A stretch of DNA of 64,000 bases, from assembly GCF_023546765.1 (NCBI RefSeq), contig NZ_CP097484.1:6382001-6446000 (forward strand), in the 5' to 3' direction. Positions 3,979-24,864 of the stretch are shown here, piece by piece. The notes beneath the pieces are model-generated. The model searched no databases. It saw nothing but the letters and a program-made list of their open reading frames with translations, and was not told the origin of the DNA. The position numbers and the translations under genes are program-made. Position 1 is the stretch's first letter. Each line of letters opens with the position of its first letter. Origin of the DNA: Methylobacterium tardum (GTDB taxonomy: Bacteria > Pseudomonadota > Alphaproteobacteria > Rhizobiales > Beijerinckiaceae).

Positions 3979-5181
3979 TCAGCCGACGGCGCCGCTCCCC
4001 TCGGCGCCGTGCGGCCGTGTCCCCCACAAGGCGGATGCCAGGCCGAGGTTGACCAGCGTGAGCGCCAGAAGCAGGCCGTAGGCCGCATCGGCACCGCCGT
4101 AGGTGAGCGCCACGGCTCCGAGGGACGGCGCCAGTGCCTGCGCGACCAAGCCCGGCCGCGCAAGGCGACCCACGAATACCGGGTAGCGGACGGGGCCGAA
4201 CAGGGCGAGCGGCACCGTGCCCCGCGCGATGGAGTAGATCCCGTTGCCCGCTCCGTAGAGCACCAGGGCGACGCCGACCGCCGGGATGCCGGCCGCCAGG
4301 ATGGCCAGACCCACGGCTATCAGCGACATGGCCGCCGTCAGGGTCCAGAGCGGGTGGTACCTGCCCTTGTTCGCCATCTCGACGATACGGGCCCCGACCT
4401 GGGCGAGCCCGATCAGCGCGCCGTAGGACACGGCCGCCGCGAGCGCAACGCCGCGGGCCTGCAGCAGCGCGATCAGGTGCACGGAGACCAGCGTCATCAC
4501 CGTGCCTCCCAGCACCAGCACGCCGGCCATCAGCAGGAACGCCCGGCGCTCGCGGACCGTCAGAGGCACGTCTGCCCCGTGACCCGCTCCTCCCTCGGTC
4601 GACAATGCGGGCGCCTTCGGGATCAGGCCGAGCACGAGCGGCAGGGTCACGGCAAGGTGGAGGCCGGCATAGGCGAGGCAGGCATGGCGCCAGCCGACCT
4701 GCTCGACGAGGAAGGCCGAGAGTGGCCAGCAGACGGTGCTGGCGAACCCGCCCCAAAGGGTCAACGTGGTGATGGCCGGGCGCGCCTCGGCGCCGTAGAG
4801 CCGGCCGAGCGTGGCGAAGGCCGGGTCGTACAGGCCGCAGCCCATGCCGAGGCCGAGTAGGAGCCATCCGGCAAGGAACACTGGCAGGGACGGCGCCAGG
4901 CCGATCACGACGTGGCCCGCCGCCAGCAGCAGCGCGGCGGATGCCAGGACCGGGCGTCCCCCGTGCCGGTGGATGGCGATTCCTACGCGGGGCGAGGCGA
5001 TTGCCGCCACCAGGAGCCCGATGGACAGGCCGCCGACCACCCAGGCCAGGGGCCAGCCCGTGTCGGCGGCGATGGGGTCGGCGAGCACCGCCGGCAGGTA
5101 GAACGAGGAACCCCAGGCGAGGATCTCCACCACGCCGAGGGCGGAGATCACGACGAGGCGGCCGCGGGCCTCAGACCTCAC
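3979..5181 (-). CDS. MFS transporter of the ars cluster
   Basis: 400 residues with about 12 hydrophobic segments and major facilitator features: a long first helix ([17 protein letters not shown]) and a loop 2-3 motif-A-like region ([13 protein letters not shown]). It starts with GTG inside the last codons of acr3 (11-base overlap), so it is translationally coupled as the last gene of the leftward ars operon. MFS proteins in ars operons include the arsenite/organoarsenical exporters ArsK and ArsJ. Its position suggests such a role, but the sequence alone does not separate them. Confidence 0.8.
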
Positions 5182-6237
5182 GGGAGGCTGGCTTGAGCGC
5201 CGCTTCCTTGCCCGCCGCGCCGCGCTCGTACCAGCCCCGGCTCCTGTTCACGATCCACACGACCGAGAGCATGACCGGGACCTCGATCAGGACGCCGACC
5301 ACGGTGGCAAGCGCCGCGCCCGAGTTGAAGCCGAACAGGCTGATGGCGGCGGCGACCGCGAGCTCGAAGAAGTTCGACGCGCCGATCAGCGCCGAGGGAC
5401 CGGCCACGCAGTGTTGCTCGCCCGCGGCACGGTTCAGCAGGTAGGCCAGCCCCGAGTTCAGGTAGACCTGGATCAGGATGGGGATCGCGAGCAGGCCGAT
5501 GACCGCGGGCTGGGCCAGGATCTGCTCGCCCTGGAAGCCGAACAGCAGCACCAGGGTGGCCAGGAGCGCCACGAGCGAGGCAGGCCCGAGCCGGCGAGCA
5601 GCCGGTCCAACGCCGCCTGGCCTCCCGAGGCGAGGAGGCTCCGCCGCACGACCTGGGCGATGATCACCGGGATGACGATGTAGAGCACCACCGAGAGCAC
5701 CAGCGTGCCCCACGGCACCGTTATGGCCGAGAGACCGAGCAGCAGGCCGACGATTGGTGCGAAGGCCACAACCATGATGGTGTCGTTCAGCGCCACCTGG
5801 CTCAGGGTGAAGTGCGGCTCGCCCCGGGTCAGGTTCGACCACACGAACACCATCGCCGTGCAGGGCGCCGCCGCCAGGATGATGAGCCCGGCGATGTAGC
5901 TGTCGACCTGGTCGGCCGGCAGGTAGGGCCGGAACAGGTACCCGATGAACAACCAGCCGAGCGCCGCCATCGAGAACGGCTTCACCGCCCAGTTGATGAA
6001 CAGCGTCACGCCGATGCCGCGCCAGTGCCGGCCGACGTGGCGGAGCGAGGCGAAGTCGATCTTGAGCAGCATGGGGATGACCATGAGCCAGATCAGGGCC
6101 GCCACCGGTAGGTTCACCTTGGCGACCTCGACGGCGCCCACGGCGTGGAAGAAGCCCGGCATGACGTGGCCGAGGGCGATGCCGGCCACGATGCAGAGGG
6201 CGACCCAGAGGGTCAGGTAGCGTTCGAAGGTGCTCAT
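5171..6237 (-). pseudogene. acr3: Arsenite efflux pump Acr3, frameshifted
   Basis: Acr3/ArsB3 arsenite exporter of the inner membrane, about 355 residues when read across a break. The N-terminal part includes the conserved Cys helix ([11 protein letters not shown]). The frame is lost near 5592 at LDRLLA. The downstream part ([23 protein letters not shown] onward) continues in another frame. Adding one base between GCC and GGCTC restores the usual A-R-L-G-P-A-S junction. Because similar one-base breaks hit ftsY and ispE in this window, an assembly error is more likely than a dead gene. It lies between arsRC and the MFS gene. Confidence 0.85.
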
Positions 6238-6244
6238 GGCGTGC

Positions 6245-7033
6245 TCAGGCGGTGACGACGCGGCAACCGTGCTCGTCCACGACCCGCTCGCCGTCCTCCT
6301 TCACGAACTCGCCCTGCTGCATCGGCAGGAGGTCCAAAACCGCCTCCGACGGCCGGCACAGGCGCACGCCCTTCGGGCTCACCACAAGCGGACGGTTCAG
6401 CAGGACCGGATGCGCCTCGACCGCGTCGAGCAGTTGCTCGTCGGACAGCGCCGGGTCGCCGAGGCCCAGCTCTGCGAAGGGCGTGCCCTTCTCGCGCAGT
6501 GCGTCGCGCACCGAGAGGCCGGCGCGTGCGAGCAGCTGTCTGACCAGCGTCCGGTTCGGCGGCGTCTTCAGGTATTCGACCACGTGCGGCTCGATGCCGG
6601 CGTTGCGGATCATCGCCAGGGTGTTGCGCGACGTGCCGCATTCGGGGTTGTGGTAGATCACGACGTCGAACGGCTCAGGCATGGGCGGTCTCTCCGTTAG
6701 GGGGCAGCAGGTGGCCAGCGCGGCCATCGCTGGGGCACAGACCTCCGGGCGGCCCTGGCAGCAGTCGCGCATCAGGAAGGCGATCAGGTTGGACAGCACC
6801 GGGTAGGCGGCGCTGTAGATGATCGAGCGGCCCTCGCGTCGCGAGGCGACCAGCCCAGCGTGGCTCAATTCCTTGAGGTGGTGGGAAACGCTCGCGGCGG
6901 AGACGCCGACCGCTTCGGCCAGCACGCCGGAGGCCAGGCCGTCCGGCCCGGCGGTCACGAGGGCCCGCACCAGGCGCAGGCGGTGTTCCTGGGCGAGGGC
7001 CGCGAACGCGGCGAGGGCTTGCGGTTCGTCCAT
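6245..7033 (-). CDS. arsR-arsC: ArsR repressor fused to glutaredoxin-type arsenate reductase ArsC
   Basis: One open frame of 262 residues. Residues ~1-105 are an ArsR/SmtB winged helix (recognition region [19 protein letters not shown]) ending in a Cys-rich tail (DCC ... CAP ... TCCP) that could bind As(III). Residues ~118-262 are ArsC: catalytic Cys in [12 protein letters not shown] and the later [13 protein letters not shown]. An internal ATG at 6682 (MPEPFDV) has its own Shine-Dalgarno (GGAGAG). The junction contains a C5 run followed by TAA in the adjacent frame. One C fewer would end ArsR at TGCTGCCCCTAA and leave arsC separate. The fusion may therefore be an indel artefact. The ATG at 7033 is preferred over an upstream TTG. 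Confidence 0.85.
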
Positions 7034-7046
7034 TTTCGATACAATC

Positions 7047-7064
7047 TTCAAATTACAATTTGAA
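7047..7064. promoter_or_regulatory. Putative ArsR operator in the divergent arsRC/arsH promoter
   Basis: Perfect palindrome TTCAAATT-AC-AATTTGAA in an AT-rich gap of about 50 bases between the divergent arsRC (start 7033) and arsH (start 7084). ArsR-type repressors bind AT-rich dyads of this size, so ArsR probably controls both directions. The site also argues against the TTG at 7060 as the arsH start, because that codon lies inside the palindrome. Confidence 0.7.
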
Positions 7065-7083
7065 CGTACAAGAAAGCCGATCC

Positions 7084-7829
7084 TTGGACAAGCCCGCCCA
7101 GCCCTTCGCCGACGGCCTGCCGAACCTGAGCCAGGCGCACTTCGTGGTGCCGACCCGCGAGGGCGTGCAGACGACGACGCCGTTCACCCACGCGCCCCGG
7201 TTCCTGATCCTCTACGGCTCGCTGCGCGAGCGCTCTTTCAGCCGCTTCCTGGCCTACGAGGCGGCGCGCCTGCTGGAGGCGATGGGCGGCGAGGTGCGGA
7301 TCTACGACGCCCACGGCCTGCCGCTGCCGGACGACAGCACCGCCGACCATCCCAAGGTGCAGGAGCTCCGCGCGCTCTCGATCTGGTCCGAGGGCCAGGT
7401 CTGGGTCAGCCCCGAGCGGCACGGCAACATGACCGGCGTGATGAAGAGCCGGTCGACTGGCTGCCCCTGAGCGAGGGCAGCGTGCGGCCGACCCAGGGGC
7501 GAACCCTGGCCGTGATGCAGGTGTCCGGCGGCTCGCAGAGCTTCAACGCCGTGAACAGCCTGCGGATGCTCGGGCGCTGGATGCGGATGATCACCATACC
7601 GAACCAGTCGTCGGTGCCGATGGCCTACAAGGAGTTCGACGACGCCGGCCGTATGAAGCCGGGGCCGCTCTACGAGCGCGTCGTGGACGTCTGCGAGGAG
7701 CTGATGAAGGTCACGCTCCTGACCCGCGAGCGGGCCGACTACCTGGTCGACCGATACAGCGAGCGGAAGGAGCGCGAGCCGGAGCGGCTGAGCGCGGTGG
7801 CCGCCGACATCGGCTTCGTGAAGCGCTGA
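7084..7829 (+). pseudogene. arsH: Organoarsenical oxidase ArsH, frameshifted
   Basis: NADPH-dependent flavoprotein that oxidises trivalent organoarsenicals; about 248 residues when corrected. The FMN-binding loop is visible early ([22 protein letters not shown]). The frame breaks near 7450, after [10 protein letters not shown]. The continuation [26 protein letters not shown] and the rest to [12 protein letters not shown] lie in another frame. One added base at AGCC/GGTC restores the family's usual S-x-(V/I)-D-W junction. The likely start is TTG 7084 (LDKPAQPF). Divergent from arsRC across the operator. Confidence 0.85.
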
Positions 7830-15938: not shown

Positions 15939-16116
15939 GTCCGCCCCCTTCCTCGTGCTCGGCCTTGATGAGGGCCTGGATGACAGCGGTGATCTCGGCC
16001 AGGTCCCCGGGCCTGATGAGACCGTCGCGGACGAGTGCGATGGCGTGAGCGGCGATGCCGAACAGCGCGAGCTGACGCTCGGAGGGATCGGTCCGGTCCA
16101 TGATCGCCTCCCTCAT
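15935..16116 (-). CDS. Short unknown protein in the FtsH-like operon
   Basis: About 60 residues from ATG 16116, overlapping the protease stop (ATGA). It reads REAIMDRTDPSERQLALFGIAAHAIALVRDGLIRPGDLAEITAVIQALIKAEHEE, an amphipathic helical protein. As given, the frame runs past a G5 run near 15948. With one more G it would end at a TGA that overlaps the next ATG, matching the other junctions. The end coordinate assumes that correction. Confidence 0.45.
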
Positions 16117-18617
16117 CGCCGCCGCGCCGGTCCGGCCTCGGCGACCAGCCGGGCGACCCGCGCGCCATCGAGACGGCGCTCGACGAGCAGCGCTTCCGCA
16201 ATCCGGCGTACGGCTCCCGCATGCCGGCGGACCGTGTCCCGCGTCTCGGCGTACAGCCTGTCGAGTAGGGCCGACGTCTCCGCCTGCAGGCGCGGGTCCG
16301 TCGCGAGCGCCGTGACGGGATCCCGCTCGACGGCAATCAGGCTACGCTCGCCCAGACCCCACTCGCCCAGCATACGGACCGCGATCCTCGTCACGGTGAG
16401 CAGGTCCTGGCGCGCGCCCGAGCTGGCGCTGTCGAGGATGATCTCCTCCGCCGCCCGGCCCGCGAGCCCGATCCGGATCCGCGCCTCGGCCTCGGCGCGC
16501 GTCCATACCCCGCTGTCCCCCCCGACTAGCTCGACCCACCCGCCGACGCCCTCGCGCGACTGCAGGGTGACGATCAAGTCGCGGTCCGGATCAGACAGGT
16601 GCGCCTGCAGGGCGTGCCCGGACTCGTGCACCGCCAGGCGGTACAGCGTCGCCTCCGGCGTGTCCGCGTCCCCGGCCCCGGCGACGTCCAGCAGGTCATC
16701 GAGGGCGAGCGGCCGCCCCGCGTGCCGGGCGCGGCGGCGGGCGTCCTCGACCAGGGCCTCGATCATCGCGCCAGTGTGCCGTTCCGTCCGGTACGCGACC
16801 GGCAGCAGGTCCGCGTCGCGCAGGTCGTCACCGAGGCGGACGCGCAGCATCGCGACGCGCTCCTCCACGTCCGGCAGGCCCATCTGGATCGTCTTGCCGA
16901 GCCGCCCGGGCCGCCGGATCGCCGGGTCGATGCGGTCCGGATCGTTGGTCGTCCCGATGACGATGACGCCCTCCCGACCCGCCGCTCCGTCGAGTTGCTC
17001 CAGGAACGAGTTGATGACTTGCAGGACGTAGTCAGCGTGACGATGCTGCACCGTGCGGCGGTCGGCGAAAACGTCGACCTCGCCGACCAGCAGCAGGCAG
17101 CCGCGCTGCCCCGAGGCCAGGGCCTTGGCCCGCGCGAACGTCTCGCGCATCGCCCTCAGCGTTGTCCCGAGATGCGCCTCCCCCGTGCCCTGCCACTCCA
17201 TCAGCGACGAGATGATGAGGGGCAACCCGCTGCTGTTGGCGAGAGCCTGCGCGAAAAGCGTCTTGCCGGTGCCGGGCAGCCCGCCGAGAATGGCGCCGTT
17301 GCGGACTGTCGCCCAATGCTCCCCGCTCCGCCATGCTGCCAGGTCCGCGATGAGGCCGCGGCCCCACTCGACCGCCTCCCGGGCGCCGTGGAGCTGATCG
17401 AGCGTAAGGTCCCGCCCCCGGCCCGACGCCGGCGTCGGCGTGACGAGCCGGACGATGTGCTCGACGCAGCGTGCCGGATCCCGCCCCGGGCGCACCGCCG
17501 CGGCGACGTCGGCCGCCGAGAACGCGAGCCCCTCCAGCCGGGCGCGGTCGGCGTCGGAGACGGCCTGGCCGGTCGTGCCCCGGATGACGGCAGCCACGTC
17601 CGCCCCGCAGATCGGGGACAGCGTGAGGCGGTGGTCGGCCGCCCGCAGCGCGACGGCCGGCAGGCACGTCCCGGCGTCCGGCGACAGGGCCAGAACAGGC
17701 TGCTCACGCCTGAGGCAGGCGACGTACTGCCGCTCGCGCTTGGCCGCCTCGTGATGCTTCGCCGGCGCGTCCTCGGCGAGCATCTCGACGCCGAACGGGA
17801 CGCCCCGCTTGGCGTCGGCCGTGTCCTTAAGCACGGCGAGCGTCAGCGCGTCGGGCACGTCGAGCAGGACGACGCCGCCACCACCGACCAGGGCCTCGCT
17901 GACGCCTGGCACGTCGAGCGTGCGTTGCAGTTGCAGGGCGGCGGCGTGCGTCACCGGCGGCAGCCCGGAAACGACGTTGTCATCGAGGCCGTCGAAGCAG
18001 ACGTCGAACTCGGGCTCGGCGCGGGGCGCGGTCGCCGTCACTATTGTTGCCTCGTCGACGAGATCCACCCAGGCCATCTGCCGAGAGAGCAGGCGGTTCT
18101 CCGGGCGCCAGGCGTTCGCGGCGTCGTATGTCCCGAGCTCGACCTGCCGGACGATGTGGCTCGCCTCGGCGCGCGTGCAGAGGACTTGGCGCCTCTGCAC
18201 GGGATCCTCCGTGGCGCCGGCGTCGACGTCGAGCGTGTGCATCGCGGCCAGGGCGCATTGGCGATGCCCGGCGATTGCCGCGACGAGTCGGGCCCGGTCG
18301 CGCCACTCGGTCATCGTCTCGCGCGATTCGACCGGCAGCGCGCGGTCGACGCTGGCGAGCTCGCAGGCCTGCGCGACGGCGACGATCTGCAGGACGTGGC
18401 CGTCGTCGGTCAGGGCCTCGATGGCACACCGGACGCCGTCAGGGACGCCTGCGAGGTCGAGGGTACGCGCCCAGGCGGCCATGTCGGCGGAGGGCGGCCC
18501 CAGCGTGGGGTACCCCAGGGCGAGCTCGCTGTAGGTGGGAACCGTGGTGAGGAGGTCTGCGGGCGTGTGCTCACCCGCGCGGGCGGCCGGCGCCCGACGC
18601 TGCGCGTCGTCGGTCAT
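16113..18617 (-). CDS. Soluble FtsH-like AAA+/M41 metalloprotease
   Basis: 834 residues with no membrane helix, unlike cellular FtsH. Residues 1-~420 are a large unrecognised N-terminal region. The AAA module has Walker A GGLPGTGKT (near 444) and an arginine-finger region NDPDRIDPAIRRPGRLG (near 560). The Walker B stretch reads LLLVGEVD, so the usual Asp before Glu is Gly. The M41 peptidase follows: HESGH zinc site (near 663) and LAGRAAEEIILDSASSGARQDL, whose acidic residue should be the third zinc ligand. The protease should be active if ATP binding works. Shine-Dalgarno GGAG precedes ATG 18617. First gene of a four-gene overlapping operon. Substrate unknown. Confidence 0.8.
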   Translation of the reverse strand: MTDDAQRRAPAARAGEHTPADLLTTVPTYSELALGYPTLGPPSADMAAWARTLDLAGVPDGVRCAIEALTDDGHVLQIVAVAQACELASVDRALPVESRETMTEWRDRARLVAAIAGHRQCALAAMHTLDVDAGATEDPVQRRQVLCTRAEASHIVRQVELGTYDAANAWRPENRLLSRQMAWVDLVDEATIVTATAPRAEPEFDVCFDGLDDNVVSGLPPVTHAAALQLQRTLDVPGVSEALVGGGGVVLLDVPDALTLAVLKDTADAKRGVPFGVEMLAEDAPAKHHEAAKRERQYVACLRREQPVLALSPDAGTCLPAVALRAADHRLTLSPICGADVAAVIRGTTGQAVSDADRARLEGLAFSAADVAAAVRPGRDPARCVEHIVRLVTPTPASGRGRDLTLDQLHGAREAVEWGRGLIADLAAWRSGEHWATVRNGAILGGLPGTGKTLFAQALANSSGLPLIISSLMEWQGTGEAHLGTTLRAMRETFARAKALASGQRGCLLLVGEVDVFADRRTVQHRHADYVLQVINSFLEQLDGAAGREGVIVIGTTNDPDRIDPAIRRPGRLGKTIQMGLPDVEERVAMLRVRLGDDLRDADLLPVAYRTERHTGAMIEALVEDARRRARHAGRPLALDDLLDVAGAGDADTPEATLYRLAVHESGHALQAHLSDPDRDLIVTLQSREGVGGWVELVGGDSGVWTRAEAEARIRIGLAGRAAEEIILDSASSGARQDLLTVTRIAVRMLGEWGLGERSLIAVERDPVTALATDPRLQAETSALLDRLYAETRDTVRRHAGAVRRIAEALLVERRLDGARVARLVAEAGPARRR

Positions 18618-18694: not shown

Positions 18695-18704
18695 CCGTTA
18701 ACGG
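18695..18704. promoter_or_regulatory. GTTAAC palindrome upstream of the FtsH-like operon
   Basis: Perfect palindrome CCGTTAACGG, about 80 bases before the protease ATG and overlapping the stop codon of the HTH gene. Related sequences occur at 19362-19373 and 12665-12674, each upstream of another gene start, so a shared operator is possible. Confidence 0.35.
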
Positions 18705-19198
18705 TGGGTTGGATCCAGCGCCCGCAGCCCCCTAAGCTCTACCAAGGCACTCGTGGCATCCGTGAATAGGGCGGTCGCCCCGATGGTGCGTTGGGCGTCG
18801 AGATACCGCGCCGCGGCCCGAACGAGGGCGGCGAACTCCCTGGCGTCATGGCGCTGGGCGATCCTCACGACGCCAGAGAGGGCGTTCGGGGGAAGCCCCT
18901 GTTTCCGGACGCGGTCGCGCGCCGTCGAGCGCCTGTTCATGCCGGTGAGCTCGGCCACGGCGGAGGACCAGTCGTCGCCCCAGACGCGGTTGGCAAGGGC
19001 ATCGAGGGCCTCGACGAGGGCGACGCCGTACGCATCCCTCGGGATCGGGACCCGGCCGTCGGGCCCCTCCAAGTGCGGCTCCCGCCCGACGTACACGAGC
19101 TCGCCCTCGCGGCCGTCGAGCCACACGCGGCCGAGGCGGAGGTCGCCCGGCTCCGGCATCGACGGCGCGGCGAGCTCAAGGCGGACGAGGGGCGTCAT
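18698..19198 (-). CDS. Helix-turn-helix protein, probable regulator
   Basis: 166 residues from ATG 19198 (TPLVRLELAAPSMPEPGDLRLG); the frame continues upstream but reads as non-coding. The N-terminal ~50 residues look like a small beta domain (RVWLDGREGELVYVGREPHL). A central segment (GDDWSSAVAELTGMNRRSTARDRVRKQGLPPNALSGVVRIAQ) has the spacing of HTH proteins of mobile elements, where a replication- or phage-type HTH is followed by a short Pro turn. The C-terminus is helical. Located between the FtsH-like operon and the divergent methyltransferase gene, with GTTAAC palindromes on both sides. Confidence 0.55.
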   Translation of the reverse strand: MTPLVRLELAAPSMPEPGDLRLGRVWLDGREGELVYVGREPHLEGPDGRVPIPRDAYGVALVEALDALANRVWGDDWSSAVAELTGMNRRSTARDRVRKQGLPPNALSGVVRIAQRHDAREFAALVRAAARYLDAQRTIGATALFTDATSALVELRGLRALDPTHR

Positions 19199-19361
19199 GG
19201 ACCGTCTCCACGCGGGGGCACGGCCCGATGCCATGGCCCGCCCCCGGTGGTGCCCGGCCGCCCTGGCGCGGTCAAGCCGCCGGCGCCAAGAGCCCAGGCT
19301 GTTGGTAACGATCTTCGCACTCTCGGCTGGCGCACCGGCGCGGGTTAATACAATGTGGCGG

Positions 19362-19373
19362 TCGGTTAACCGA
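19362..19373. promoter_or_regulatory. TCGGTTAACCGA palindrome in the HTH/methyltransferase gap
   Basis: Perfect 12-bp palindrome in the 290-base gap between the leftward HTH gene and the rightward methyltransferase gene. It lies in the only relatively AT-rich part of the gap (GGGTTAATACAATG just before it). Candidate operator for the HTH protein. Confidence 0.4.
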
Positions 19374-19488
19374 AGCGGCGAGGCACTGGGTTGCAGCACG
19401 AAATGAAACGCCTGCCGGGGACAGGCGCGGTCGGCCAGTAGGACCGACCGAACGGACGAGTATTGCAATCCTTGAACAGGCCCGCGCG

Positions 19489-20649
19489 ATGAACGTGAAC
19501 GTCAAGCCAGACCTCTTCCGCCCCGAACCCGCGAAGGCCGACGGCGCGAACATCCGTTCTCGTCGCGGCAAGGCGACCCCGCCGGAACCGGTCCTCGAAC
19601 CGGCGTTCATAAAGACCCTGTTCGGCGACGCGCGCTCCGTGCCACTAAAGGCAGGGGACGCCGATCTCGTCGTGACGTCACCGCCCTACTGGCTGAAGCG
19701 CGACTACGGAGTGCGCGGTCAGATTGGCCAGGAACCCACGGCCGACGAGTTCGTGGCGTCCCTCCTCGAATGCATGGAGGACTGGCGGCGGGTCATTCCC
19801 GAATGGGGCTCGGTGTTCATCAACCTTGGCGACACCTATCACCGCAACTCTCTCGCCGGTACGCCTGCCAGGCTTGAGGTGGCCGCCGAGGATGCCGGGT
19901 GGAAGCTCCGCAATCGCATCATCTGGGTCAAGGAAGGCGGGATGCCTGATCCCGCGAAGGACCGGCTCAAGAGCCGGCATGAGTTCATCTTCCACTTCGT
20001 TCGGAACAAGAACTACTACTACGACCAGTTCGGCTATGCCGAGAAGTATGGGAATGGCACCGGGCCGAGCGACGTCTGGACCATCGGCTTGCGGCGGGAT
20101 CTCAGCAATCACTTGGCGCCATACCCGGTGGAGCTCGTGGACCGCATCCTCACGCTCGCCTGCCCGGAGCAGGTCTGCACGTGCTGCGGCAAGCCACGGC
20201 GCCGGATCGTGGAGCGTACGGCGATGCTCGACACCACGCGGCCGCAGGCGCGCCGCGCCATGGAGCTGGCGGCCGAGAAGGGTCTGACGGACGCCCACAT
20301 CGCGGCCATCCAGGCGACAGGCATCTCGGACGCCGGCAAGGCGATGAAGACACAGACGGGCACCGGCAGGAATTCCGCCGCCGTCCAGCGGCTGGCGGCC
20401 GAGGCCAAGGTGGCTCTGGGCGGGTACTTCCGCGAGTTCACCTTCGCGAAGCGCGTGACAGCCGGCTGGACCGACTGCGGCTGCGAGGGCCCATACCGGC
20501 CAGGCATCGTCCTGGATCCGTTCTCCGGGACCGGCACGACGTTGCGCGCCGCCGCTTCCGCGGGACGAAGTGCGTACGGTATAGATCTGGCGAACACCCC
20601 CGCGTCGAAGAGGGCAACGTCAGGTGGCAGCAGGTCCAGGGTCGGGTGA
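19489..20649 (+). CDS. Beta-class DNA amino-methyltransferase
   Basis: 386 residues. The catalytic motif TSPPYW (near residue 63) precedes the AdoMet motif DPFSGTGTT (near 344), which is the beta-class order of N4-cytosine or N6-adenine methylases. A probable zinc site (CPEQVCTCCGKPRRR and DCGCEGP) is typical of phage and Type II enzymes of this class. The tail after YGIDLANTP is odd and follows a C5 run; one more C gives RVEEGNVRWQQVQ, so the true C-terminus is uncertain. It overlaps the next gene by 26 bases and should protect the host from the McrBC-like nuclease downstream. Confidence 0.85.
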   Translation: MNVNVKPDLFRPEPAKADGANIRSRRGKATPPEPVLEPAFIKTLFGDARSVPLKAGDADLVVTSPPYWLKRDYGVRGQIGQEPTADEFVASLLECMEDWRRVIPEWGSVFINLGDTYHRNSLAGTPARLEVAAEDAGWKLRNRIIWVKEGGMPDPAKDRLKSRHEFIFHFVRNKNYYYDQFGYAEKYGNGTGPSDVWTIGLRRDLSNHLAPYPVELVDRILTLACPEQVCTCCGKPRRRIVERTAMLDTTRPQARRAMELAAEKGLTDAHIAAIQATGISDAGKAMKTQTGTGRNSAAVQRLAAEAKVALGGYFREFTFAKRVTAGWTDCGCEGPYRPGIVLDPFSGTGTTLRAAASAGRSAYGIDLANTPASKRATSGGSRSRVG

Positions 20650-21265
20650 GACCTACGTATTCACTGTGGATGCGGTCCGACGGGCGATGGACCGGCTTTC
20701 CGCTACGCCGGCGCACGAGCATTTCGCGGGCTACCTAGGTCTTCTGGAGGCCGACCGCCGGGGCAAGGGCGGCCTCCACCGGAGCCGGGACATCAAGGAC
20801 TTCCACCAGCGCTACCTGACCGTCGCGGGCCTCAAGACCTCGTCGCCCTTCTTCTCGCCGGTCCGCAACCCGGACGCCGGCGAGGTCAAGCCCTTCAACA
20901 AGAACGTGGCCGGCTCCTACGCACCAAGCTCGCTCCGGCCGGACGGGCCGTTCATGGCCGCCGTGGACGTGAAGGGGAAGGGCCAGGGCGTGACCTACTC
21001 CCTGATGCCGGACCACGCGAACGTGGCGTCAGGCTCGATGCTCGGGGGCAAGCGCGTCCAGGCCGTCGCGCTCGCCGCCTACCTGTTCCGCGACTACGGG
21101 TTCGAGGAGCGCAGCCTGCAGGCGGTCCTCGATACCTTCCGTGACCGCTTCGCCCTCCGCGCACACCACACGGACGAGTCGGCGACGTTCGCCGCCCTGT
21201 TCGACCCGAGCCTCGACGGTTTCGCCGACGAAGACCTCGTCCCCCTGGCTCAAGACGCGGCTTGA
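20624..21265 (+). CDS. Unknown protein between methyltransferase and McrB
   Basis: 213 residues starting with GTG inside the methyltransferase gene. It begins GETYVFTVDAVRRAMDRLSATPAHEHFAGYLGLL, has a central segment with possible DNA contacts (RSRDIKDFHQRYLTVAG, NKNVAGSYAPSSLRPDGPF), and ends in an acidic helical region. No signal, membrane helix, catalytic motif or known fold is visible to me. Its stop overlaps the McrB start (TGATG). Position suggests a dedicated subunit of the system, perhaps for target recognition. This is inference. Confidence 0.6.
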   Translation: MAAGPGSGETYVFTVDAVRRAMDRLSATPAHEHFAGYLGLLEADRRGKGGLHRSRDIKDFHQRYLTVAGLKTSSPFFSPVRNPDAGEVKPFNKNVAGSYAPSSLRPDGPFMAAVDVKGKGQGVTYSLMPDHANVASGSMLGGKRVQAVALAAYLFRDYGFEERSLQAVLDTFRDRFALRAHHTDESATFAALFDPSLDGFADEDLVPLAQDAA

Positions 21266-22263
21266 TGATCATGACGCCGGAGAAGGTCCGCCAGCTCACG
21301 GTCGAGAACCTGGGCATCGCGTCAGCCGTGGCCTCGACGCCCGACGCCCCGGCGCCCGCGCTGAGCGCCGCCGACACTTCGCCCGAGGACCTGGAACTGC
21401 CCGAGGGCGACGAGGTCCTGGCGCAGCTCCTCGACGCCATCGACCTTGGCTACGCCGGCATCATCTTGGTGGGCCCCCCGGGGACGAGCAAGAGCTGGTA
21501 CGCCAAGCGGCTCGCCCACGCATATGCGGGCGATGCCGACGCGACCGACTTCGTTCAGTTCCACACCTCGTATCAGTACGAGGACTTCATGGTCGGGTTC
21601 GTCCCGGACGCGGCGGGCCGGTTTCAGCCGGTGAAGCGGACGCTACCCATCATGTGCGAGAAGGCGCTGGCGCGCCCGGATACGCAGCACGTGCTCGTCA
21701 TCGACGAGATCTCGCGCTGCGACGCCGCCAGGGTCTTCGGGGAGGCCCTCACCTACGTCGAGATGGACAAGCGCAAGCTGCCCTTCCGGGTCGCCTCCGG
21801 GCTGGAGATGACGATCCCCGAGAACCTGGTGATCATCGCGACCATGAACCCTTGGGACAAGGGCGTGGACGACATGGACATCGCCTTCGAGCGGCGCTTC
21901 GCCCGGGTCGAGATGCCGCCGAGCCCAGACCTCCTACGGGAGATCCTGTTGGCGAAGGGCGCCGAGCAGGAGTTCGTGGAACGGATGCTCGCGTTCTACG
22001 AGGGCATCCAGCGGCTTGATGACGAATACTGTAGGCTTGGGCATGCCTACTTCATCAACGCGGTCAATGACACCAGCGCGAGGCGGATCTGGGCGTTCAG
22101 CCTCGATCCGTTCTTCAAGCGGGCCTGCCGGTTCTTGCCCGAGACCTACAAGGACATCCGGCGCATGTGGCGTGCCTTTGAGGACGGAGCGCCGGCGCCC
22201 GAGGTGGAAGCGTCCACCGATCCCGAGGCCGTGCCGGCAGGTGCCCCGGGCGCGGCGGCCTAA
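21265..22263 (+). CDS. McrB-type AAA+ ATPase/GTPase
   Basis: 332 residues from ATG 21265. Walker A GPPGTSKSWYAKRL is near 70. The McrB hallmark FVQFHTSYQYEDFMVGF is near 95. Walker B is VLVIDEISRCD, and a sensor/arginine-finger region TMNPWDKGVDDMDIAFERRFARVEM follows. The protein is essentially the motor domain; the first ~50 residues are too short for a classical N-terminal DNA-reading domain. In McrBC systems this motor drives a McrC nuclease. It is sandwiched between the unknown 213-residue protein and McrC with overlapping or near-abutting frames. Confidence 0.85.
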   Translation: MIMTPEKVRQLTVENLGIASAVASTPDAPAPALSAADTSPEDLELPEGDEVLAQLLDAIDLGYAGIILVGPPGTSKSWYAKRLAHAYAGDADATDFVQFHTSYQYEDFMVGFVPDAAGRFQPVKRTLPIMCEKALARPDTQHVLVIDEISRCDAARVFGEALTYVEMDKRKLPFRVASGLEMTIPENLVIIATMNPWDKGVDDMDIAFERRFARVEMPPSPDLLREILLAKGAEQEFVERMLAFYEGIQRLDDEYCRLGHAYFINAVNDTSARRIWAFSLDPFFKRACRFLPETYKDIRRMWRAFEDGAPAPEVEASTDPEAVPAGAPGAAA

Positions 22264-22272
22264 GGCGGCGCG

Positions 22273-23661
22273 ATGCGGCGCCTCCAACGCGTCCCGGCGG
22301 GCGTCAGCTTCGCGTCAGGTCATCGGGCCGACCACCGGGTCCTGCAGGCCACCGAGCACGCGATGCTGCCGCTGCCTCCGGAACTCGTGCTGCCCAATGG
22401 CAGGCTCGACCTGCACGACGACGTCCTGAAATACTTCCAGGTCCTCTTCAAGGGGACCGTGCCCCACATCCTGCTCGGCCGCTACGTCGGCTACATCCCG
22501 CTCAACGATGCCTGGGCCATCAACGTCACGCCGCGGGTGCCGGTCGGGAACATGGAGCGCCTGATGGGCATGGTGACGGGTTACCGGCCCGTCGTGCTCG
22601 CTAGGCACCTCCGCACCTTCTCTACGTCCACGGAGATGCCGGTCTCCCTGGTGGACCTGATGGCCGAGCAGTTGCTGGCCATCTTCCAGCGCATCTGGCG
22701 CGACGGCCTGGTCGCGCAGTACGAGCGCCGCGAGCGCATCGGGTCGTCCCCGGCCGGGAGCGTGCGCGCCCTCGACAGCGCCCTCCTCACCCAGCGGGGC
22801 GCCAGACCCGTCGCCGTCTCGTCGTCGTTCGAGCGCACCACGGATTTCGGCCCGAACCGGATGCTGCGCCTCGGGGTCGAGAACCTGCTGCGGCGCTTTC
22901 TCTCCCTGCCGTCGGAGCTCGTCAGCCCCAAGCGCCTCCACGAGTTGCGGCGCACCCTGCGCGGCCTGGAGCACATTGCGCCGGCGCGTCCGTCCGAGGC
23001 GAGCCCCGAGGCCGTCGCCCGTTACCTGGCCTCACTGCCGCAATACCACGAGCACTACGTCGACGCCCTGCTGCTGGCCGAGCTGATCATCCGCGGCCAG
23101 GGCCTGGCCATCCGGGATCCGGACGGGGAGACGGTCTTCCGCACGATCCTGGTCGACATGGAGCGGATCTTCGAGGACTACGCCCGCCGGCTCCTGTCCG
23201 GGCACTTCGGGCGCGCCGGCGCGCCGCGGGTGCTCGACGGCAACTTGGGCGGCCCGGGCGGCGCCAAGATGCCGGCCTACGAGACGCTCGCCGCCGGGGC
23301 CAAGAATACTGACATGACCCCCGACATCGTCTTGCAGGACGGTGCGGCGACCCACTTGGTGATCGACGCCAAGTACAAGCGCAACGAGGGCGTCCCGGAC
23401 CGGCCCGACCTGAACCAGGTCCTGGGCTACTCCGTCCGCTACCGGTGCCCGAGGGTGATGCTGCTCTACCCGATCCGTCCGGACGGCGTGGAGCCGGCGC
23501 GATTCGTGGGGACCGTTGGTGATACTGAGGTCTACACGGGCCACATCGACCTGGCGTCCGTCGACATCGAGGAGGAGGAGAAGCTATTCTGCGGGGCGAT
23601 CCAGGCCCTTTTCGAGAATTCCACGTCCTTCAAGGCAGGATCTGCGTCACTCCAACCCTGA
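22273..23661 (+). CDS. McrC-type nuclease subunit
   Basis: 462 residues. The N-terminal half has the beta-rich McrC pattern (VLKYFQVLFKGTVPHILLGRYVGYIPLNDAWAINVTPRVP... in sense). The C-terminal half carries the PD-(D/E)xK nuclease: TPDIVLQDGAATHLVIDAKYK near 355, followed by a Q-x-L-x-Y helix (LNQVLGYSVRYRC). It starts nine bases after the mcrB stop. Together with the methyltransferase it suggests a restriction system in which cleavage is blocked by modification, similar in principle to LlaJI-type McrBC-like Type II systems. Confidence 0.85.
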   Translation: MRRLQRVPAGVSFASGHRADHRVLQATEHAMLPLPPELVLPNGRLDLHDDVLKYFQVLFKGTVPHILLGRYVGYIPLNDAWAINVTPRVPVGNMERLMGMVTGYRPVVLARHLRTFSTSTEMPVSLVDLMAEQLLAIFQRIWRDGLVAQYERRERIGSSPAGSVRALDSALLTQRGARPVAVSSSFERTTDFGPNRMLRLGVENLLRRFLSLPSELVSPKRLHELRRTLRGLEHIAPARPSEASPEAVARYLASLPQYHEHYVDALLLAELIIRGQGLAIRDPDGETVFRTILVDMERIFEDYARRLLSGHFGRAGAPRVLDGNLGGPGGAKMPAYETLAAGAKNTDMTPDIVLQDGAATHLVIDAKYKRNEGVPDRPDLNQVLGYSVRYRCPRVMLLYPIRPDGVEPARFVGTVGDTEVYTGHIDLASVDIEEEEKLFCGAIQALFENSTSFKAGSASLQP

Positions 23662-23667
23662 ACGCGC

Positions 23668-24057
23668 ATGTCGAAACGCAGGTACCACTGGACGCCGGAA
23701 CAGCTCGACCGCATGGCGGACATGGTCGAGGCCGGCATACCTCGCCCACGCATCGCCGCGGCCATGGATGCGAACGTGGCGGCCGTGGAGTGGCAGCTCC
23801 TGCGCCTGGGCGTGGTCGGCCCGAGGAGCGGCAGGGTCGGCAAGGCCGGTACGGACTACGTCCGGGGCGGGCGCGTCGTACGGCGGTTCACCCCGGAAGA
23901 GGACGCCCAGCTCCTGCTGCTCGAAGCCGAGGGGCTCGGGGCCAGCGAGATCGGCCGTCGGCTCGGCAGGGCGCACCACACCGTCATAGGCCGGCTCGCT
24001 ACCCTGGCCCGCCACGAGCAGCTCGATGAGGAGAAGCGCAGCGGAGGCCAGAGGTAA
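23668..24057 (+). CDS. Double helix-turn-helix (Myb/SANT-like) DNA-binding protein
   Basis: 129 residues beginning six bases after mcrC. There are two similar HTH units: WTPEQLDRMADMVEAGIPRPRIAAAMD (about 7-35) and FTPEEDAQLLLLEAEGLGASEIGRRLGRAHHTVIGRLATLARHE (about 74-118). Both have the Trp/Phe-T-P-E-(E/Q) opening of Myb/SANT-like HTHs. The linker is basic. It may regulate the restriction operon or be its DNA-recognition factor. Confidence 0.65.
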   Translation: MSKRRYHWTPEQLDRMADMVEAGIPRPRIAAAMDANVAAVEWQLLRLGVVGPRSGRVGKAGTDYVRGGRVVRRFTPEEDAQLLLLEAEGLGASEIGRRLGRAHHTVIGRLATLARHEQLDEEKRSGGQR

Positions 24058-24131: not shown

Positions 24132-24692
24132 TCACGGCCATTCGAACGCGCAGCCCCCGATCAGGTCCAAAGAACCGTCGAGGGGACGGACCCGGTTGAC
24201 GGAGATTGCCATCTCACCGGTCGGGCTGAACGCCCGGGAGAACGCCGCCATCTCGACCTCCCAGCCCTCCTCCTGCGCGACCCGCACCAAGGGCATGAAG
24301 TCCCGATCCGCCGAGGCGAGCACGAGCACGCCCGGCTCGGGTGCCTTCACGATGATGCGGGTCCCCTGCGCGACCAACTCCGTGTCGACGGCCTTCTCCT
24401 TGTTCTGGGCGTTGCGCTCGTGCGTGATGACCTTGAAGCCCCCCTGCTCGGCCATCGTCCACACCGCGTCGTTCGCCGGCGGCCGGGACCCGACAAGGAT
24501 CGCTTCCTGGATCGGCCTCCCGTCGGCGAGGCGGGTGAGCAGGCGCGAGAAGTCGATGCGCCAGGAGATGTCCGAAGGCTGCCTGTCGCCGGGCGCGGCG
24601 GGAAGCTCCCCCTTACGAACCGCCGAGGCCTTCTGGCCCTCGATGAAGATGTTCGAGTTGTCGACGAGAATCACGCAGCCCACGGTCGCCAC
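24132..24692 (-). CDS. NYN-domain protein (PIN-like RNase)
   Basis: About 186 residues from a GTG at 24692; an upstream TTG would add 24 residues. The NYN/LabA-type fold is clear: first acidic motif ILVDNSNIFIEG, central KAVDTELVAQGTRI, and third motif LVLASADRDFMPLVRVAQEEGWEVEM. These Asp residues form the metal-binding site of PIN-like nucleases, so it probably cleaves RNA. It lies at the right end of the accessory region beside the tRNA-Gly gene. Links to phage defence are possible but unproven. Confidence 0.75.
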   Translation of the reverse strand: MATVGCVILVDNSNIFIEGQKASAVRKGELPAAPGDRQPSDISWRIDFSRLLTRLADGRPIQEAILVGSRPPANDAVWTMAEQGGFKVITHERNAQNKEKAVDTELVAQGTRIIVKAPEPGVLVLASADRDFMPLVRVAQEEGWEVEMAAFSRAFSPTGEMAISVNRVRPLDGSLDLIGGCAFEWP

Positions 24693-24790
24693 CTGTGAAT
24701 GGTTGTATCGATGTTGTATCCGGCCATCCCGGACATGCGTCAGCGTCGGACCAAATGCGGCCAACTCGCTGACGCAGCAATGAAAATTGA

Positions 24791-24864
24791 TGGAGCGGGT
24801 ACCGGGAATCGAACCCGGGTATTCAGCTTGGAAGGCTGCTGCTCTACCATTGAGCTACACCCGC
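24791..24864 (-). tRNA. tRNA-Gly (anticodon TCC)
   Basis: Reads on the minus strand from GCGGGTG to ACCCGCT plus an encoded CCA, 74 bases in all. The D-stem/loop (GCTCAATGGTAGAGC), anticodon loop CTTCCAA, and T-arm with GGTTCGATTCC are all present and pair normally. The 3' end points to the accessory region on the left, the orientation expected if the element used this tRNA as attachment site. Confidence 0.95.

Follow-up and report, generated by a model that had tools for sequence, protein, structure and literature searches.

Within a stretch of 64,000 nucleotides from Methylobacterium tardum (assembly GCF_023546765.1, contig NZ_CP097484.1, positions 6,382,001 to 6,446,000 of the forward strand; hereafter the window), we found that four consecutive genes, encoding a DNA methylase, a 213-residue protein, a McrB-type GTPase without a reader domain and the nuclease subunit McrC, form a conserved unit. 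In related loci the methylase and the 213-residue protein stay together as a fixed pair, while the effector that goes with them can be exchanged; a short N-terminal tag is common to these effectors. We read the locus, with a probability of about 0.62, as a restriction-modification-type system in which a methylase and a separate reader form a chassis, and interchangeable effectors are recruited to it via the tag as a docking motif.

A search of 5.8 billion proteins, which admits only proteins of 0.55–1.75 times the query length, returned 106 homologues of the 213-residue protein. Fourteen loci were located, namely the window, two haloarchaeal plasmids (L003 and L004), GTDB genomes L005–L013 (found through one conserved word), L029 (found through its methylase) and L040 (found through its McrB); these loci are partly dependent, with two from Hymenobacter (L012 and L013) and two from Devosia/Devosiaceae (L005 and L029). 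In all 14 a methylase homologue (42–78% identical) lies directly upstream of the 213-residue gene, overlapping it or separated by at most 23 nucleotides (nt) where the starts are clear; in L009 the methylase stands at the contig end with only its last 61 residues present, and L029, having been found through its methylase, is not an independent test of this link. The 213-residue protein thus accompanies the methylase in 14/14 loci versus McrBC in 8/14. An earlier reading of this DNA, made from its sequence only, had held that 213-residue homologues lying mostly away from McrBC would speak against a joint system, and this is partly the case, with six of the 14 loci having no McrBC alongside.

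The gene after the 213-residue gene belongs to one of three classes. McrB followed by McrC occupies this place in eight loci (the window, L005, L006, L011, L012, L013, L029 and L040), an OLD/Gabija-like AAA_21 ATPase with a DUF4276 protein in four (L007–L010), and a deaminase-like protein of 156–158 residues in two (L003 and L004). The ATPase matches PADLOC HEC-01A (PDLC04177) at 4e-119 and 5e-126 in the two loci scanned (L007 and L010), and the DUF4276 protein matches HEC-01B (PDLC04192) at 1e-84 and 7e-131 (L007 and L008 scanned), the remaining assignments in L007–L010 being made by eye; this pair does not occur in the window. The small haloarchaeal proteins (L003:8587-9063 and L004:8584-9054) bear the tag and carry a CxxC near the C-terminus, and may possibly be base-modifying effectors, the term deaminase-like being tentative because a cytidine-deaminase match is below the Pfam cut-off in L003 (E 2e-4) and absent in L004. 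As a rough guide only, using equal-sized source contigs, 19 of the 106 homologues pair with McrB, 10 with HEC-01A, 2 with both and 75 with neither among the matches listed (120 each), against a noise level of 3 coincidences between the McrB and HEC-01A listings.

An N-terminal tag of the pattern [VI]RxL[STK]xx[DENQ][LMV] is present in 14/14 effectors across all three classes, a count that is descriptive because the pattern was read off those 14 proteins. It occurs once per locus and always in the gene after the 213-residue gene (1,420 open reading frames (ORFs) of at least 60 residues in the 14 loci); the 339 decoy ORFs (74,057 residues) do not contain it. The independent test was made with cross-class profiles. 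A profile trained on McrB proteins (109 of the best 120 McrB relatives) scored 8.2, 11.0, 15.3, 17.8, 24.8 and 31.8 on the six non-McrB effectors, with a decoy maximum of 7.1, and placed 102 of the best 120 HEC-01A relatives above that maximum. The reverse profile, trained on HEC-01A, had its best match on the tag in 10/10 McrB and deaminase-like effectors, only six of which exceeded its decoy maximum of 7.3; among the best 120 McrB relatives its best match fell in the first 40 residues in 97 and exceeded the maximum in 42. The tag profile stayed below 0 in the first 120 residues of all 11 control proteins that are not next to a separate 213-residue gene, nine of them McrB-like (the second of L007, the second of L011, L038, L039 and L041–L045) and two large, methylase-linked and helicase-type (L030 and L031).

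No relatives of HEC-01A were found on plasmids at 1e-25, and controls for this class were therefore drawn from Chloroflexota genomes. In 121 of these genomes we found 28 HEC-01A-like places, 27 of which gave an alignable ORF, and the tag was present in a single one, L051 (score 17.8), which is also the only one beside a 213-residue gene; a more distant 213-residue gene would escape this survey, since the flanks covered about 1.5 kb. The second-highest score was 7.7 (L056), at a site inside the ATPase start. The five best canonical HEC-01A proteins (L046–L050, family E <1e-150) lack the first 40 or so residues and begin, past the tag region, at the ATPase itself.

Natural fusions join the same parts in one chain. 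Three proteins, P0301 (631 residues), P0344 (639 residues) and P0337 (580 residues), consist of a 213-type domain, the tag and a HEC-01A-type ATPase; all come from metagenome contigs, in which read errors are possible, and P0337 is related to P0344 without its first ~60 residues, so the three represent at least two different fusions. When P0344 was modelled with AlphaFold, the tag block (residues 221–230) had a confidence (pLDDT) of 93 between linker blocks of 59, 67 and 69, with a helix at 233–237 and a strand at 223–227, for which strand 148–151 of the 213-type domain is a possible partner, and Foldseek matched the fusion model to SMC/Rad50 heads, GajA of Gabija, OLD and retron ATPases. L039 encodes a McrB whose first 200 residues are a diverged homologue of the 213-residue family (hmmsearch 4.7e-9 among 236 ORFs; hhalign probability 96.4%, E 1.4e-9); the 213-type domain thus sits where McrB would otherwise have its reader domain. 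This McrB has neither the tag nor the NVAGSYAPSS motif, and its locus reads methylase (5-methylcytosine (m5C)-type by eye), McrB with the 213-like domain, McrC and a Vsr-type protein.

The window McrB (AAA_5 3e-16; NCBIfam McrB PRK11331 2.5e-31) carries Walker A (GPPGTSKS), DE and the NxxD motif MNPWD, and its McrC (PF10117 McrBC 1.7e-22) carries PD...D-A-K nuclease residues that align with 7 homologues. Walker A begins ~70 residues into McrB with no domain found ahead of it, which leaves no room for a reader domain; the McrBC-like nuclease with a reader-less McrB described in the sequence-only reading is thus upheld. The start of McrB may alternatively be an ATG at 21265 or 21271 instead of the TTG at 21262. 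The 213-residue protein is the best candidate for the missing reader, a role that had been raised for it before and that gains from the diverged relative fused N-terminally to McrB in L039. It matches nothing in NCBIfam or PADLOC and gives one chance-level Pfam match (E 0.18), and no relatives of solved structure were found by sequence at E up to 1. An invariant core runs through the family, with the form N-[VILS]-x-G-[ST]-Y in most members and the consensus NVAGSYAPSSLR. Its AlphaFold model (pLDDT 92.8) gave weak winged-helix-like matches in a fold look-up, families outside the listing not being excluded. No homologues were found in phage records at E 0.01, and a pattern scan of IMG/VR confirmed none, a scan that is incomplete because the IMG/VR contig L040 holds a homologue with a changed signature. 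Two further candidates were rejected: a homologue in relative G007 (E 9.2e-4), for which the family profile was empty on the fetched region L032, and the N-terminal domains of the plasmid McrB proteins L041–L043, whose similarity is not significant (hhalign probability 0.9%).

The methylase (PF01555 N6_N4_Mtase 3e-36; PADLOC MTase_II PDLC03316 1.7e-138) shows the beta motif order, with motif IV (TSPPYW, residue 63) preceding motif I (LDPFSGTG, residue 342), in agreement with its earlier assignment as a beta-class amino-methylase, and its SPPY presumably points to N4-cytosine. Methylase, McrB and McrC have intact catalytic motifs, both in the window and in the homologues aligned with them. Residues 226–335 are closer to those of the window methylase than the catalytic part (residues 55–180) in 15/15 aligned homologues, which suggests that these methylases may share one conserved target site. 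Similarity in this region is 67–83% in the aligned bacterial loci with a 213-residue gene and 54–55% in the two archaea, and among other methylases 75% in mycobacteriophage Dulcie, 66% in Streptomyces halstedii, and 63% and 59% in two Chloroflexota methylases without a 213-residue gene; the latter two show that the target region is conserved in loci lacking the 213-residue gene as well.

Methylases of this family also occur elsewhere. They are solitary in two mycobacteriophages and one Streptomyces plasmid. Phages Dulcie (L019:2938-4017) and Parliament (H44) carry stand-alone methylases 62–63% identical to that of the window, the one in Dulcie adjoining a second annotated methylase, and no 213-residue homologue was found in either phage; the phage enzymes plausibly serve to protect the phages' own DNA from a system directed at unmodified sites. 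In Chloroflexota L030:698-6365 and L031:3847-9439, methylases ~50% identical to that of the window overlap a protein of 1,480–1,578 residues, helicase-type by AAA_11/AAA_12 in L030 and similar by eye in L031, and neither locus has the 213-residue gene or the tag. This large protein may be a further effector for the methylase family.

From the computed neighbourhood, effector exchange, tag and fusions we infer docking, DNA reading and attack on unmodified DNA. The methylase would mark a fixed target in the host genome, and the 213-residue protein would act as separate reader and adapter, recognising the target site when it is unmodified and recruiting the effector by binding its N-terminal tag, as the tag and its co-occurrence with the 213-residue gene suggest. 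McrBC is known to work by GTP-driven translocation of McrB and cutting by McrC, and in the window the recruited McrB would translocate with GTP and McrC would cut. Elsewhere the same methylase-reader pair would carry a tagged OLD/Gabija-like ATPase with its DUF4276 partner, or a tagged deaminase-like protein. We give somewhat better than even odds to the broader picture of a universal socket, in which one methylase-reader pair with one presumed target, in bacteria and archaea, accepts any effector with an ~11-residue N-terminal plug, be it a GTP-driven nuclease, an OLD-like ATPase module or a deaminase-like enzyme, while discrimination of self from non-self is unchanged.

A different role for the 213-residue protein, as a methylase subunit for specificity or regulation, with the tag docking on the methylase or the methylase-213 complex and the effector tethered in a Type I-like manner, would fit the position of its gene right after the methylase in every located locus, overlapping or within 23 nt where both starts are clear. 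We consider it unlikely, since methylases ~50% identical occur with an AAA_11/AAA_12 helicase effector but without 213-residue gene or tag (L030 and L031), homologous methylases stand alone in the two mycobacteriophages and the Streptomyces plasmid, and the 213-type domain is fused in nature to an effector and, in diverged form, to McrB; no methylase fusion was found among the 106 homologues, though the 0.55–1.75 length filter would have missed one. Distinctly less probable is an ordinary LlaJI-like Type II system with its reader on a separate chain, in which the peptide has another role (ring assembly or regulation) and effector replacement is gene shuffling. According to the passages of PMC1459862 that describe it, LlaJI does pair methylases with McrBC-like subunits and attack unmethylated DNA, and passages of PMC11090510 describe methylase-associated McrBC as common. 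However, the tag is common to three unrelated effector families, McrB and HEC-01A relatives that are not beside a 213-residue gene lack it, and a role in McrB assembly leaves its presence on an ABC-type ATPase and a 158-residue protein unexplained. A Type IV nuclease that reads foreign modification, with the methylase kept for another purpose, is very improbable, even though McrBC is the classical modification-dependent nuclease and prokaryotic winged helices can sense N6-methyladenine (6mA; passages of PMC11037411), since the methylase and the other parts are inherited together in all the located loci and the enzyme would have to be harmless to the system's own nuclease, and the close phage relatives (62–63%) would fit self-protection against attack on unmodified sites. 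The term modification-sensitive is unlikely to apply in the Type IV sense, because a methylase that is always linked to the nuclease speaks for a system that attacks DNA without modification, like that described for LlaJI in part of PMC1459862.

The preferred reading, of a shared reader with a docking tag, can be set against known systems. The pairing of a methylase with McrBC is already known from LlaJI, while the plug-in design was not found described. LlaJI likewise holds methylase, McrB-like and McrC-like genes in one cassette; in the passages of PMC1459862 devoted to it, it has two m5C methylases, a reader domain fused to R1 and restriction of unmethylated DNA, whereas the window has a single beta-class amino-methylase (PF01555) and a presumed reader that is separate and shared with unrelated effectors. 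Compact cassettes on plasmids L041 (Mesorhizobium), L042 (Sphingobium) and L043 (Roseibium), mostly beside a recombinase gene, encode an amino-methylase, a McrB-like ATPase with its own ~200-residue N-terminal domain and a third protein, and appear to be a conserved kind of LlaJI-like cassette that uses another reader. The McrB census (Bell et al. 2024, PMC11090510) places NxxD-type McrB beside predicted DNA methylases and leaves methylase-associated McrBC to a separate publication; its passages on these genes do not mention a stand-alone reader, a docking tag or effector exchange. Type IV McrBC shares the McrB GTPase with NxxD and the McrC with PD-(D/E)XK residues, but the window McrB has no modified-DNA reader domain and a methylase is linked; CoCoNuT, a Type IV branch marked by an NxD GTPase motif and long coiled coils, differs from the window, where the motif is NxxD (MNPWD). 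HEC-01, a PADLOC candidate (AAA_21 ATPase and DUF4276), resembles the alternative effector pair of four loci, but canonical Chloroflexota HEC-01A lacks the tag extension and has no 213-residue gene within flanks of ~1.5 kb. DpnI/HhiV4I may share winged-helix reading of methylation state, with the difference that their reader, in the passages of PMC11037411 that concern them, is part of the nuclease chain and senses 6mA, while the window reader is separate and its fold match weak. No system with a reader on its own chain, a docking tag and interchangeable effectors was found described in the relevant passages of PMC11090510, PMC1459862, PMC11037411 and PMC12988326; publication elsewhere is possible.

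If true, this reading would describe a restriction system in which recognition and killing are split between parts and linked through a portable peptide, like effector exchange in some other immune systems, and would explain how McrBC-type nucleases act without a fused reader. The tag would then offer a sequence handle for finding unknown effectors in genomes, and the system a small adapter of two parts with which enzymes of choice could be brought to unmodified DNA.

The 213-residue/methylase family is rare. By 213-residue profile or methylase it was found in 1/385 genomes of the class (the window's own) and 2/200 of the Hymenobacter family; the methylase at E 1e-60 or better was found in 1/149 genomes of the window's own family (again its own), and at 1e-70 or better in 1/296 Actinomycetes, 2/136 Devosiaceae and 2/201 Chloroflexota genomes (3 matches in the last). 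McrB at 1e-50 was found in 5/297 genomes of the order, these being the window, two that are probably the L029 and L006 genomes because they have the same locus coordinates, L039, and L038, whose McrB has a different N-terminal region. Metallophosphoesterase-like genes (by eye) lie near the McrBC loci of L029 and L038, two other members of the order. Over 328 residues the McrB of L040 shows no difference from a protein that bears the name Sinorhizobium meliloti, and neighbouring genes in its island were assigned by eye as an integrase and a dusA-like gene.

Table 1. Features of the operon and the edge of its region, in window coordinates (position 1 is the first letter of the window).
Feature	Position	Strand	Basis
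Beta-class amino (N4-cytosine or N6-adenine) DNA methylase, 386 aa	19489..20649	+	PF01555, PADLOC, motif order
Methylase residues 226-335, Cys-rich insert / presumed target-recognition region	20164..20493	+	Conservation versus residues 55-180
213-aa protein, GTG start, presumed separate DNA reader and adapter, NVAGSYAPSSLR family	20624..21265	+	Homologues, AlphaFold, neighbourhood
McrB-type GTPase without N-terminal reader domain, 333 aa, TTG start	21262..22263	+	AAA_5, PRK11331, NxxD
N-terminal tag EKVRQLTVENLGIA of McrB, presumed docking motif	21280..21321	+	Pattern common to 14/14 effectors
McrC nuclease subunit, 462 aa	22273..23661	+	PF10117; PD...DAK residues
Protein with two helix-turn-helix (HTH)-like segments, 129 aa, probably accessory (regulator?)	23668..24057	+	Weak HTH matches
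tRNA-Gly(TCC), right edge of variable region containing the operon	24791..24864	-	3' end at 24791

The five ORFs named in the sequence-only reading were confirmed at their positions, and its description of plus-strand genes that overlap or abut agrees with overlaps of 26 and 4 nt followed by gaps of 9 and 6 nt. Its five-gene operon holds as a unit for the first four genes, which are conserved elsewhere, and not for the fifth. The fifth gene has weak matches to HTH_23 (5.9e-5) and GcrA (7.7e-5), both below the Pfam cut-off. It was rejected as a system component, as no homologue was found in the seven other McrBC-type loci (L005, L006, L011, L012 and L013 at E 1e-3; L029 and L040 at E 1e-2); the proposal that this protein is the reader was not borne out on the same count (0/7), and the gene looks like a local passenger. 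A relative (39%) lies on a Paracoccus plasmid, with no annotated McrBC within ~4 kb.

The tRNA-Gly(TCC) gene stands ~0.7 kb beyond the operon end. In 3/3 congeneric regions fetched, the similarity of 90–91% ends at 24790/24791, the 3' end of the tRNA; the operon therefore lies within a strain-variable region. A search of the window for an integration-site repeat of the tRNA end returned the tRNA itself and no second copy. Between operon and tRNA, on the minus strand and convergent with the operon, is a gene for a NYN-domain protein (24132-24764; PF01936 9.5e-13). On the other side, a minus-strand gene (16113-18617) encodes an FtsH-like AAA ATPase with an M41 peptidase (PF00004 9.6e-24; PF01434 6.7e-20), the ATPase part of which is matched by PADLOC IetA at 9.9e-21; it points away from the methylase, with an uncharacterised 256-residue gene (18698-19468) in between, and is possibly another defence gene. 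At 3979-7829, in the same variable region, Pfam matches to a major facilitator superfamily (MFS) transporter, an SBF/arsenite-type transporter, an ArsR-ArsC fusion and an FMN reductase make up an arsenic-type cluster.

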